Positions 57,764-62,152 of a stretch of DNA of 64,000 nt are shown piece after piece. Source of the DNA: Calothrix brevissima NIES-22. GTDB lineage: Bacteria > Cyanobacteriota > Cyanobacteriia > Cyanobacteriales > Nostocaceae. The position numbers and the translations under genes are program-made. Positions within the stretch are counted from its first letter, which is position 1. Every line of letters begins with the position of its first letter. The notes beneath the pieces were generated by a model. It was not told where the DNA came from. It searched no databases and saw only the letters and a list, made by a program, of their open reading frames with translations. The stretch covers positions 2,304,660 through 2,368,659 of the forward strand of contig NZ_AP018207.1 of NCBI RefSeq assembly GCF_002367995.1, in the 5' to 3' direction.

Positions 57764-57888
57764 AGGTTCGCTTTTTACTCGATGAAAATTTGTCACCCCG
57801 GTTAAAAGTAGCAGTTCTGCGGTTAAATCCTGCTATAGATATTGTGCGTGTAGGTTGGGGATTTGCGATCGCACAATATCCCACGTAG
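57760..57888 (+). pseudogene. Truncated DUF5615 PIN-like toxin gene
   Basis: The GTG start overlaps the DUF433 stop. The first 31 residues (VKVRFLLDENLSPRLKVAVL..AIDIVRV) match the start of PIN-like DUF5615 toxins, including the LLDENLSPRL acidic motif. At codon 32 the sequence runs into GTAGGTTGGGG and GCGATCGCACAATATCCC of the repeat array and stops after 42 residues, versus about 110 in the family. The remaining active-site acids are missing, so it should be inactive. Confidence 0.75.
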
Positions 57889-58252
57889 AATAGAAAAACA
57901 GCGATCCCACTGATTCAATCAAAAACCTGAGCCTGCGTAGGTTGGGTTGAGGAACGAAACCCAACATTAACTGATATTTGTCAAGCGATCGCGATCGCAC
58001 AATATCCCACGTAGAATATAAAAACAGCGATCGCACTAATTCAATCAAAAACCTGAACCTGTGTAGGTTGGGTTGAGGAACGAAACCCAACATTAACCGA
58101 TATTTGTCAAGCGATCGCGATCGCACAATATCCCACGTAAAATATAAAAACAGCGATCGCACTGATTCAATCAAAAACCTGAACCTGTGTAGGTTGGGTT
58201 GAGGAACGAAACCCAACATTAACCGATATTTGTCAAGCGATCACGATCGCAC
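57865..58252. repeat. Tandem array of 126-bp units, just over three copies
   Basis: The unit junction GCGATCGCACAATATCCC starts at 57865, 57991 and 58117, and a changed form at 58243, giving an exact 126-bp period. Each unit contains ACAGCGATCGCACTGATTC, GTAGGTTGGGTTGAGGAACG, AAACCCAACATTAACCG and ATTTGTCAAGCGATCG. Copies differ by few bases. Since 126 is a multiple of three, a 128-residue minus-strand frame (57833-58219) with three 42-residue repeats stays open; I regard it as a by-product. Confidence 0.9.
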
Positions 58253-58320
58253 ACCAAACAATGGAGAATATAAAAACAGCGATCGCCTTTTTAACTCCAT
58301 CATTCCACCTCAGAACACAA

Positions 58321-58635
58321 AACTTCAAGCTAAAAACAGGAACGTTCTCGTTTGAAACAGAAAATTCCGAGTTCAAAACAGAAAACTTCAAGCTAAAAAC
58401 AGGAACGTTCTCATTTGGAACAGGAAACTTCGAGCTAAAAACAGGAACGTTCTCGTTTGGAACAGAAAACTTCGAGTTCAGAATATGAAACTTCGAGCTA
58501 AAAACAGGAATGTTCTGGTTTGGAACAGGAAACTTTGAGTTCAGAACATGAAACTTCGAGCTTGAAACAGAAACATTCTCGTTTGGAACACGGAACTTTG
58601 AGTTCAGAACACGGAACTTGAAGATAAAAGCTTGA
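58321..58635. repeat. Fifteen exact 21-bp units with a three-part order
   Basis: Fifteen consecutive 21-bp units of three types: A (AACTTCGAGCTAAAAACAGG), B (ACGTTCTCGTTTGGAACAGG) and C (AACTTCGAGTTCAGAACATG), each given without its last base. Order is A B C A B A B C A B C A B C A, so there is a 63-bp higher-order unit. No indels break the period over 315 bp. The minus strand is open through all units (58233-58688; heptads such as ENVPVFS and SKFHVLN), starting at a TTG overlapping the STAND gene's stop; a translated product is possible but not supported by a good start signal. Confidence 0.9.
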
Positions 58636-58684: not shown

Positions 58685-60976
58685 TCAACGATATGCTTGC
58701 CTTAGGAAAATGGCATAATTGCTCCGTACCATTATTGTTAAAGGATGACCCACCCCTAAACTACGCTCACAAATATCCAAGGCTTGCACGAAAAGGAGTT
58801 CGGCTTCGCTATATTTTCCTTGGGATTGGTAGAGTCCCGCCAGATTGTTGAAGCTTTGTGCAACATCTGGATGTTCTTCACCCAACAAGCGTCGCCTGAT
58901 TGATAAAGCTTCCCGTAAAAGGGGTTCGGCTTCGCTATATTTTCCTTGGGATTGGTAGAGTCCTGCCAGATTGTTGAAGCTTTGTGCAACATCTGGATGT
59001 TCTTCACTCAACAAGCGTCGCCTGATTGATAAAGCTTCCAGTAAAAGGGGTTCGGCTTCGCTGTATCTTCCTTGGAAACGATAGAGTTCAGCTAGATTGT
59101 TGCGGCTTTGTGCAACATCTGGATGTTCTTGACCCAGTAAGCATCCTGTTAATGATAAAGCTTGCACATACAGGGGTTCGGCTTCGCTGTATCTTCCTTG
59201 GGAGTAGTAGAGATTAGCCAGATTGTTAAGGCTAGTAACAACAACTGGATGTTCTTGACCCAGCAAGTGTTGTGTTAGTGACAAAGCTTGTACATAAAGG
59301 GGTTCGGCTTCGCTGTATCTTCCTTGGGAACGATAGAGTTCAGCTAGATTGTTGAGGCTATTAGCAACATATAGATGCTTTTCACCCAGCAAACGTCGCC
59401 TGAGTGACAAAGCTTGCACATAAAGAGGTTCGGCTTTGCTGTAGCTTCCTAAAGTGTAGTAGAGATTAGCCAGATTGTTGAGGCTATTAGCAACATCTAG
59501 ATGTGATTCACTCAGAAAGCATCGCCTTAGTTGTAAAGCTTGCACATAAAGGGGTTCGGCTTCGCTGTATCTTCCTTGGTAATAGTAGAGTGCTGCCAAA
59601 TTGTTGAGGCTAGAAGCAACATCTGGATGTTCTTCACCTAAGCGTCTTTTGGTGACTTCTAGACACTGCTCAAACCAAGGTGCTGCTTGATCATACAATC
59701 CCTGACCAGTGTAAAATTTAGCGTTACCGAAGAAAGGCCAAATCAAATCATCATCGCTAACATATTGAATGAGATTGTTTGCGACTTCAGCTATATGAGG
59801 TATGGCGGGGGTGAAATCTGTAATTTGCTCAAGGGTAGAGGTTTGAGGAATATCTTTGGCAACTGCTACCATTACCTTACAAAAAGAATGCTTAAATTCC
59901 TCTGCTTTATCTAAACCTGTCAACTTATATTGAAAAAACTCCCGCAGTAGGGGATGTAGTTGATAGATTCCCTCACCTTTGCGCTGAAGTAAATGCAAAT
60001 TCAACAACTTATCATCTCTAATTTCCTCTAAATCTTCCCCGTCTTCCTCTAGTAAACACTGTTCCACCAACACCCAAGGTATAGGCGCGGCTGCAAATAA
60101 ACTCAATAAACACCCCACTAGGGGCGGGGTTACCCCGCCCTTACAAAGCGCGTCTTCTAATTCTTGCCAACTCAACTCAAAAGCGGCTAACACACCCCTT
60201 TGCGCTGTCATATCGGCTTCTGCTTCCTGAAGCGCAGGTTGTTCGAGTCGCTTTTTCTCCAACCGTCGCCGCATTTCCGCCAAAGATAAATCTGGTTTCC
60301 GCGCCAAATACCGCCCCACCAACTCCAAACCCAAAGGTAAATATCCCAGCCACTCACATAACTGTAATCCTACCTGGGGGTTGCGTTGATTTTCCCGTTC
60401 AAACCTTTCTCTCCCAATAATAGACTTTAATAATTCCAGCGCCGCCTCTGGTTGCAGTACATCTAAAGATAATGTTGCTATGCGCCCCAACTGCTGACGG
60501 CTAGTCATCAGTACTTTAAACCGAGAAGATAAAGACGTAAAGTAAGGTTTCACTTCCCGATAATCAGCCACATCATCCAACACCAGCAGCACTTCACCCT
60601 CACGCCAATTGCGAAAGCAATATTGTACTTGGGCGGAGAAATCTAAATCTTTGGGCGGGTTTAAATCAAGCTGAATTCTCGCAAACTGGATAATTTTCGA
60701 GCCTATATCCTCAGATTTTGGCAATAACCAGCAAATTCCCCCCTGATAACTGTTGCACTGCTGGATTGCATATTGCAACGCCAATTCAGTTTTCCCAACA
60801 CCACCCATCCCCGCAATAGCAGCAATGGCTACTTGTTGATTTTGCTGCAAAAGTTCGTGGAGTGTTTGCAATTCTTCCCCACGCCCAATAAATTCCCCTA
60901 CACCACTCAGGGGTAAATTTTGCGGTATTTCACTTTGGGGATGAGACTTTACCTGTTTCCCTACAGGCGAGTGTAG
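58685..60976 (-). pseudogene. NB-ARC-TPR STAND protein, main part downstream of an in-frame TGA
   Basis: This is the NTPase and sensor part of a STAND protein: EFIGRGEELQTLHELL linker, P-loop GMGGVGKTELA, Walker B LLVLDDV, GLPL-type LGYLPLGLELVG, winged helix with QLHPLLREFF, then seven 42-residue kinesin-light-chain-type TPRs (NNLAxLYxxQGRYSEAEPL). It is in the same frame as the 124-residue frame upstream, separated only by TGA at 60977-60979. The first usable start after that stop is TTG 60871, which would cut off the conserved EFIGRG motif, so it was almost certainly one gene of about 888 codons. A palindromic genomic repeat at 60118-60143 adds CKGGVTPPLV inside the domain. Two last TPRs are nearly identical in DNA. 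Confidence 0.8.
60118..60143. repeat. Palindromic genomic repeat inside the STAND coding sequence
   Basis: TAGGGGCGGGGTTACCCCGC followed by CC lies in frame within the NB-ARC region and matches the intergenic palindrome at 27200-27228. It encodes roughly KGGVTPPL. In typical relatives this segment is a continuous helix leading to GCLLSLFA, so this looks like an insertion. Confidence 0.75.
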
Positions 60977-61351
60977 TCAAAAGTTAAAGGTATTACCAGA
61001 AATACTATTAGTTCCGCCTTTAATATTTATCCCTTGATAATTTTCAATAATTTGGCTTAATCTCGGCTGTGCTTCCTTGGCTAATGCTGCGACAGCTTCA
61101 GCTATTTCATCATCTTTCTTTGCCGCTTCCTCTACTTGCTGCCCAATCAGGTAAGCTTGACCGTAATCTAAAGGTTGTGTTTGAGCCTGTTCAATAGCTT
61201 CTGCTGTGGTGGGTGCTTTTTTCTTGAGCAACGATAATAACTTACCACCTTGCTCTAAAGTCTTCTCGCCAAGAATCTCACCAGTCTTTTCAAAAGCTTT
61301 TGTAATGACTAAAGTAGCAATAGCAGCTGCTGTGAGTGTTACAGGCTCCAT
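60977..61351 (-). CDS. N-terminal effector-associated domain of the STAND gene, ending at TGA
   Basis: 124 residues beginning MEPVTLTAAAIATLVITKAF, a helical, Ala/Lys-rich domain that often stands at the front of cyanobacterial NB-ARC or NACHT proteins, followed by IKGGTNSISGNTFNF, a linker that normally leads straight to the NTPase domain. It ends in TGA followed by CTA, the next codons (LHSPVGKQVK) being in frame with the NTPase part. As a stand-alone product it would be a single helical domain. It may also be read through to the longer protein; TGA-C is a leaky stop context. Confidence 0.75.
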   Translation of the reverse strand: MEPVTLTAAAIATLVITKAFEKTGEILGEKTLEQGGKLLSLLKKKAPTTAEAIEQAQTQPLDYGQAYLIGQQVEEAAKKDDEIAEAVAALAKEAQPRLSQIIENYQGINIKGGTNSISGNTFNF

Positions 61352-61470: not shown

Positions 61471-61869
61471 CTAACTAAATAAACTAGCATCTACATGAAA
61501 ATATTCTGCAAGTGCTGCTGCTTGAGTGTTAGTGATAGCGCGATCGCCATTGATAATTTCCTGTACAACTTCCAAGGAACCAATGACTTCAGCTAATGCT
61601 TCTGCTGTCACATCTTGAGCATCCATTAGATGAATTAACATTGAATTGGCTGTACCTTGGGGAATTGGGTAATGAGTTGCTTCAAACTTTTCAATTAACG
61701 TTACCAGCAGTTCTAACACCATCTCTTCTTCTGGTGTACGCTGAGGACGATGTTCTAAGGTTAAAGCCAGTCTGATTGCTTCTTCGTTTTCTGCTTCCGT
61801 CGTAATCGTTTTTGGTTGATACTCAGCTAGCAACTTACCGTAAGATTCAGGATTAAAAGTACGGGTCAT
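61471..61869 (-). CDS. higA: HigA-type antitoxin with helix-turn-helix
   Basis: A 132-residue protein from the ATG at 61869, which overlaps the end of higB by 17 nt. The C-terminal helix-turn-helix (VTAEALAEVIGSLEVVQEII, then AALAEYFHV) is typical of HigA. The N-terminal part (YGKLLAEYQPKTITTEAENE, then EEEMVLELLVTLIEKFE) is the arrangement of cyanobacterial HigA proteins. It should neutralise HigB and repress the operon. Toxin-first order is the usual higBA order. Confidence 0.9.
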   Translation of the reverse strand: MTRTFNPESYGKLLAEYQPKTITTEAENEEAIRLALTLEHRPQRTPEEEMVLELLVTLIEKFEATHYPIPQGTANSMLIHLMDAQDVTAEALAEVIGSLEVVQEIINGDRAITNTQAAALAEYFHVDASLFS

Positions 61870-62152
61870 TTTTCCATTTATCCTTATCATATTCGGCGTG
61901 AGTTAGGACATATTTAATATAAATTCTTTGAGATTCGTAAACAATATCAACAATTAAGCGATAATTGTTACCTTTAATATTAAAGACAGTAAAGTTACCA
62001 ACTGCTTCAGCCTTGGGATAAATAGCTTGAACCTCAAGCAAATTTTGCCATTCTGCTTGAGTTGCTACCCTATACCAATCATAGAGTGCATCGCAGGAAT
62101 CTGCATGTGCTTGACAAAACTCCCGCAAAATCTTGCGGCTAATAACGTGCAT
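61853..62152 (-). CDS. higB: HigB-type mRNA interferase toxin
   Basis: A 99-residue RelE-superfamily toxin: MHVISRKILREFCQAHADS, LYDWYRVATQAEWQNL, then FTVFNIKGNNYRLIVDIVY and the C-terminal IYIKYVLTHAEYDKDKW with conserved Arg/His/Tyr residues used for ribosome-dependent mRNA cutting. It has full family length, so it is probably functional. It is the first gene of the unit higB-higA-(STAND), which makes a compact conflict or defence cluster. Confidence 0.92.
   Translation of the reverse strand: MHVISRKILREFCQAHADSCDALYDWYRVATQAEWQNLLEVQAIYPKAEAVGNFTVFNIKGNNYRLIVDIVYESQRIYIKYVLTHAEYDKDKWKNDPYF

Follow-up and report, generated by a model that had tools for sequence, protein, structure and literature searches.

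A leaky-stop and pseudoknot cassette of Cyanobacteria is predicted to yield a free effector and an effector-sensor fusion from one gene

We examined a 64,000-nucleotide stretch of the 9.26-Mb genome of Calothrix brevissima NIES-22 (hereafter the window) and describe a locus that is very probably a single gene from which programmed stop-codon readthrough makes two products. According to this prediction, most ribosomes would stop at an internal UGA and release a free effector of 124 aa, while some, aided by an H-type pseudoknot and the UGA-CUA context, would insert an amino acid, presumably via a near-cognate tRNA, and continue into an NB-ARC-TPR sensor, giving an effector-sensor fusion of 888 aa as the minority product. 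Sequence comparison supports the conserved stop, the pseudoknot, the in-frame leader, the coding constraint and the spread of the arrangement; we infer the occurrence and rate of readthrough, the inserted residue, the seeding of free effector and a role in immunity.

The locus (Table 1) is a single frame of 889 codons, read from 61351 to 58685 on the minus strand, whose sole internal stop, TGA at 60977-60979, is followed by CTA. Re-reading confirmed this part of the preliminary description, as well as its placement of EFIGRGEEL between the TGA and the first ATG, GTG or TTG (TTG 60871). Its further claim, that the downstream part cannot be a complete gene, proved too strong for this locus taken alone: a start at TTG 60871 would lose the FIGR motif, but it would keep the P-loop, which lies past it at about 60788-60811. 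A Pfam scan of the frame placed NB-ARC and TPR families after the stop, the NB-ARC match setting in at about 60871 (E 8.6e-16) and the TPR families scoring over the curated cut-off. Like STAND ATPases with NB-ARC and TPR domains, the sensor thus carries FxGR, a P-loop, NB-ARC and TPR; unlike them, it has no ATG of its own and is apparently reached by translation that continues past the end of the effector gene.

Table 1. Features of the locus, in positions of the window
Feature	Position	Strand	Basis
Effector ORF, 124 aa, helical family, begins MEPVTLTAAAIATLVITKAFEKTGE; a complete gene up to the internal TGA	60977..61351	-	frame, relatives, model
Effector C-terminal motif GINIKGGTNSISGNTFNF	60980..61033	-	sequence; low confidence, unstructured in model
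Internal stop TGA, then CTA; proposed readthrough stop	60977..60979	-	sequence, relatives, pattern loci
Putative readthrough element, TGA + 41 nt	60936..60979	-	match to covariance model R1, 54.2 bits
Pseudoknot stem 1, 5' arm, GCCTG	60964..60968	-	family alignments
Pseudoknot stem 1, 3' arm, CAGGT	60951..60955	-	family alignments
Pseudoknot stem 2, 5' arm, GGGA within the stem 1 loop	60958..60961	-	sequence and family-level support
Pseudoknot stem 2, 3' arm, TCCC	60938..60941	-	sequence and family-level support
In-frame leader, stop to FIGR motif, without ATG, GTG or TTG	60893..60976	-	protein-level conservation in relatives
Predicted readthrough part: leader, NB-ARC (about 60242-60871), TPR (about 58766-59719), final stop	58685..60976	-	sequence, Pfam

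The part upstream of the stop had relatives in 29 of the 58 genomes searched (its own included), most of them separate open frames of 123-211 codons (exceptions: 38, 90, 823 and 971 codons), and by this comparison it is a complete gene of a recognisable family. Searches of Pfam, PADLOC and NCBIfam returned no family match for it. Its structure model was all-helical (pLDDT 71), with the C-terminal motif disordered, and a fold search of the model against the PDB gave no match at E ≤ 0.001. A candidate class is the HeLo/Bell-like membrane effector, which is defined by a helical N-terminal domain of that fold. At one further locus (L065, G003:C93), a stand-alone effector is followed by an apparent decayed remnant of the cassette and, downstream, by an 823-codon frame in which a related domain seems to be fused to a P-loop protein with no stop between them.

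The internal stop recurs in relatives of the window. In a genome of the same genus (G005), the effector and STAND parts adjoin as in the window, with TGA CTA at the stop and the frame continuing unshifted into the STAND part, at 88% identity to the window before the stop and 82% after it, and the part after the stop had relatives in 33 of the 58 genomes (E ≤ 1e-20). Since matches to a covariance model that contains the TGA are biased towards it, the stop was tested with a pattern that begins only after it, scanned over a collection of 84,980 species genomes. This pattern identified 63 loci, all 63 in Cyanobacteria (Nostoc, Scytonema, Brasilonema, Calothrix, Moorena, Xenococcus, Acaryochloris and other genera), and had no match in viral contigs. 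The codon preceding it was TGA in 60 loci and TAG in three, never TAA or a sense codon, the loci being related and hence not 63 independent events; for comparison, TGA ends 5 of the 35 window ORFs of at least 200 codons. Neither the 63 pattern loci nor the two-gene relatives inspected presented a sense codon with an intact element. Downstream, frame 0 was open for at least 50 codons in 62 of the 63 loci (0 and 2 for the other frames) and contained FxGR or a P-loop in 61 (0 and 1); one exceptional locus, L251, has a second stop right after the first and looks decayed. Given the same TGA CTA in the same-genus relative and a stop at all 63 pattern loci, the arrangement is far beyond chance. As to the stop itself, all three Moorena pattern loci (L214, L216 and L234) have TAG as the putative readthrough stop, and TAG stands in place of TGA in 6 of 150 pooled loci.

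The bases flanking the stop were also recorded. The base that follows it is C by design in the pattern, and the pooled figure of 141 of 150 is biased, both the pattern and the model containing this base; among the 19 cassettes found by protein similarity, a set blind to it, the base was C in 18. The base before the stop, which is absent from pattern and model alike, was T or C in 143 of the 150 pooled loci and never G, and may be part of the signal.

A protein-led survey, blind to the stop, covered the N-terminal parts of 61 of 64 STAND matches. A same-frame upstream ORF of more than 100 codons preceded 22 of them: in 19 cases it ends in TGA and the frame continues, with no ATG, into the STAND part, and in three it ends in TAA and the STAND protein has its own ATG. 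No such ORF precedes the other 39, of which 36 have an in-frame ATG. Homologues with separate start codons, which the preliminary description had named as telling against its reading, therefore do occur, as a sister architecture (42 of the 61 N-parts are non-cassette, 39 of these 42 with an in-frame ATG).

Directly at the stop begins a conserved element, whose consensus over 19 sequences reads TGA CTR NAG YCG, CCYG-loop-CRGG, an A-rich stretch and a C-run, with variations. Stem 1 joins columns 12-16 with 25-29, and its loop pairs with the C-run, making an H-type pseudoknot; the cassette thus runs from UGA-CUR-NAG through the pseudoknot, about 9 bases past the stop, and along the in-frame leader into the sensor. 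All 19 elements, the window's among them, came solely from searches by protein similarity, and the pattern had no part in their selection. In their alignment 94.7% of the cells are paired and both sides change in five of the nine pairs, with 15 double-change cells (3.2 ± 1.5 when shuffled) and a covariation score of 0.374 (0.181 ± 0.020 when shuffled), and sliding the alignment by one column lowers the pairing to about 50%. The window's row is one base out of register for the 5' arm of stem 2 in the family alignment. A single-sequence fold of the window's element was unremarkable (z -0.50), the support for the fold being comparative, and a comparison of the element with Rfam gave no match.

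Over 87 distinct aligned rows, 94.3% of the cells are paired, with 67 double-change cells against 21.2 ± 3.4 in shuffled alignments. Stem 1 is paired in 99.5%, a figure that leans to this stem because the alignment was fitted to it and most rows came from the pattern, which fixed several of its positions. Stem 2, which is absent from the model, is 87.7% paired and has 13 double-change cells against 4.2 ± 1.8; three of its four pairs are broken in 11-17 of the 87 rows, and its count of three pairs with double changes was equalled by 80 of 500 shuffles. With a shift of the 3' arm allowed, 140 distinct 51-mers kept all five stem 1 pairs in 131 cases and four of five in 9, and their mean stem 2 score was 11.17, against at most 10.87 in 200 partner swaps. 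In 78 distinct 44-mers from outside the pattern, read in a fixed register, each stem 1 pair was kept in 66-72, and GC, CG and TA were all common at one of the pairs. On the evidence of these alignments, stem 1 covaries strongly and stem 2 clearly more weakly.

A covariance model of stem 1 only (R1), built from the 19 elements including the window's, had a single match in the window (E ≤ 0.001), the element itself, and two in the window's own genome, the second lying on contig C5. Across 388 genomes of the class, 66 had a match (E ≤ 0.01; 87 matches, a few of them by chance), and 117 of the 217 genomes of the window's family had the element at E ≤ 1e-4.

Substitutions were counted over 220 sequence pairs, drawn from 48 of 80 sequences and not independent of one another. 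The leader, from the element to FxGR, had a pN/pS of 0.44 (NB-ARC: 0.215) and is therefore apparently read as protein. Within the element pN/pS was about 1.1, so that protein-level selection is not readable there; the synonymous difference was 0.087 in the element (13 codons) against 0.388 in NB-ARC, and this low value points to constraint on the RNA itself.

These data bear on the main rival explanation, which we disfavour and regard as unlikely, namely termination-reinitiation or internal initiation. Here the sensor would be started downstream at a non-ATG codon, be it TTG 60871 in the window, a GTG or TTG elsewhere or the codon directly after the stop, and the RNA fold would serve as a signal for reinitiation. 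Two public records that we checked do place the sensor start past the stop, by 102 codons in CP019637.1 and 38 codons in NZ_CP091916.1, with the parts as separate genes. Furthermore, GTG or TTG precedes FxGR in about half of the FxGR loci, CTG or GTG directly follows the stop in 58 of 150, and the start at TTG 60871 would, as mentioned, spare the P-loop. However, in 54 of 108 loci with FxGR no ATG, GTG or TTG precedes it (ATG does in 1 of 108), no start codon precedes the P-loop in 11 of 137 loci that have one, and of the 53 in-frame candidate starts that precede FxGR in the pattern set, two have an SD-like 4-mer. Next to the stop, the commonest codon in the 150 pooled loci is CTA, with AAG, GAG, GAA or CCG in single cases; moreover, the leader is constrained as protein, and under a reinitiation model the sensor need not keep the frame of the effector. 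In both public records the annotated start lies past either the P-loop or the FxGR motif, and these annotations suggest that sensor genes are mis-annotated.

Under the preferred reading, programmed readthrough, the cassette joins modules of several kinds. Before the stop, 137 of the 150 pooled loci match a helical effector profile (itself derived from 78 members of that pool), seven match TIR over the Pfam cut-off, four form a hydrolase-like cluster (L120, L130, L216 and L234, of which L120 and L216 exceed a curated cut-off), and L082 and L131 belong to none of these groups. After the stop, the largest cluster holds 128 sequences including the window's (FxGR in 107), a cluster of 15 has the two scanned NACHT proteins (L163 and L138) among its members, and seven are single cases, among them CHASE2 (on contig C5 of the window's genome), a protein kinase, a NACHT protein and a WD40 protein. 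The CHASE2 case (L142:1015-2802, G000:C5) is a second cassette of the window's genome, in which a helical effector is joined to CHASE2 and not to a STAND ATPase.

G007 and G001 are 82-83% identical to the window after the stop and 42% before it, a contrast that makes module exchange at or near the joint likely. The same contrast, beside the 88% and 82% of G005, would fit a conserved DNA that is itself a recombination joint, shuffling effectors and sensors, with the stop incidental. Such a joint predicts neither the strictly kept stop and in-frame reading nor compensatory change in two crossing stems, and we find it very improbable as the explanation of the element; it may act alongside readthrough.

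Bacterial selenoproteins combine a UGA with a downstream SECIS hairpin, and the cassette likewise has a hairpin close after its UGA. Selenocysteine insertion at a SECIS-like hairpin nevertheless has next to no probability here: neither SelB nor tRNA-Sec scored over the cut-off in the window's genome (2 and 5 of 14 control genomes, respectively, did), TAG is tolerated in place of TGA at the six pooled loci, the motif that ends at the site is variable, a second stem crosses the hairpin and Rfam has no counterpart of the element. A recent nonsense mutation, a sequencing error or phase-variation-like silencing would each leave a lone in-frame stop in an otherwise open frame, but these readings are scarcely credible and we reject them, as the same stop recurs across many genera and with its context in the same-genus relative, the element is present in over half of the family genomes, and neither the pattern loci nor the two-gene relatives inspected had a sense codon beside an intact element. 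Among the options raised in the preliminary description, it is regulated readthrough that is strongly supported, by the conserved stop, present at every pattern locus, the covarying pseudoknot and a leader usually without ATG; that the part before the stop is an effector gene in its own right and that a structured RNA follows the stop had been missed.

RF2 is present in the window's genome. A CUA-anticodon tRNA (L266:11485-11559; G000:C1 about 8086484-8086558, minus strand), labelled tRNA-Pyl by ARAGORN, sits there in a long tRNA array between tRNA-Trp and tRNA-Cys and may be an amber-reading tRNA; the nine loci scanned, which make up a small fraction of the genome, contained no tRNA with a UCA anticodon.

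Viruses and a few animal genes supply most known cases of programmed stop readthrough in which an RNA fold lies past the stop. In gammaretroviral (MuLV) gag-pol, an in-frame stop, a spacer of about 8-9 nt and an H-type pseudoknot yield a minority fusion that extends the major product, and the cassette likewise has an in-frame stop, about 8-9 nt of spacer, an H-type pseudoknot and a proposed minority fusion. Unlike gag-pol, it lies in a bacterial cellular gene, mostly has UGA-CUR rather than UAG-G, has shorter stems and joins an immune-type effector to a sensor; no homology is claimed. UGA-CUA readthrough contexts occur in alphaviruses and some animal genes, their leakiness having been recorded in organisms other than this host. 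The stop and next codon are the same here, whereas the ribosome is bacterial, the pseudoknot compact and the proteins unrelated.

A further parallel lies in bacterial NLR-associated amyloid signalling pairs, in which an effector with a C-terminal motif stands beside an NLR with the same motif at its N-terminus; Dyrka et al. 2020 is reportedly an example study. Similarly, some two-gene relatives of the cassette have a sensor whose N-terminus repeats the final ~22 residues of the effector, ENWQGINIKGGKPTIKNNT..F being one example. Among 39 non-cassette rows with an ATG, 16 pairs score at least 30 for this repeat, seven of them at least 66, scores that stand without a shuffle control; in one of these seven, L054, the upstream protein is larger and unrelated. 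Another two-gene relative, L077, has its own ATG, the effector motif and then the same leader peptide with the stop gone. The window has a single copy of the motif, just before the stop, so that readthrough would put it inside the fusion and termination would leave it at the end of the free effector. Unlike in the amyloid pairs, one copy would therefore serve both products by way of readthrough and not of two gene starts. The repeats in two-gene relatives are consistent with a fusion that seeds the free effector, suggesting the following mechanism. Once triggered, the STAND sensor would oligomerise, and its N-terminal effector copies and motif would recruit free effector and polymerise it, while the rate of readthrough would set the surplus of effector over sensor from a single transcript.

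Extended to all loci, a free effector (helical, TIR or hydrolase) would be accompanied by a minority fusion to an NB-ARC, NACHT, CHASE2 or kinase sensor. We see about even chances that Cyanobacteria possess in this leaky stop and H-type pseudoknot a dedicated mobile RNA cassette, which would make from one gene a polymerising immune effector and, as a fixed minority, its sensor-fused seed, would serve as a plug-in joint at which such effectors and sensors are exchanged, and whose readthrough rate, perhaps altered by infection or suppressor tRNAs, would set the alarm threshold. If true, this would be a simple solution to the problem of the effector-to-sensor ratio in NLR-type signalling. Judging by the frequency of the element in the family, stop readthrough of this kind would seem to be widespread among cellular genes of bacteria, and about 140 distinct natural elements are on offer for dissecting it on the bacterial ribosome.

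Some observations concern the locus and its surroundings. Within the sensor's TPR part, positions 58782-59638 form a tandem DNA array of 126-bp units (81% matches), suggesting repeat turnover in the sensor. Downstream of the gene (57865-58619) are tandem arrays of 126-bp and 63/42-bp units, with repeat ORFs on both strands, and immediately upstream of the effector gene (61471-62152) lie ORFs for a HigB-like toxin and an HTH antitoxin.
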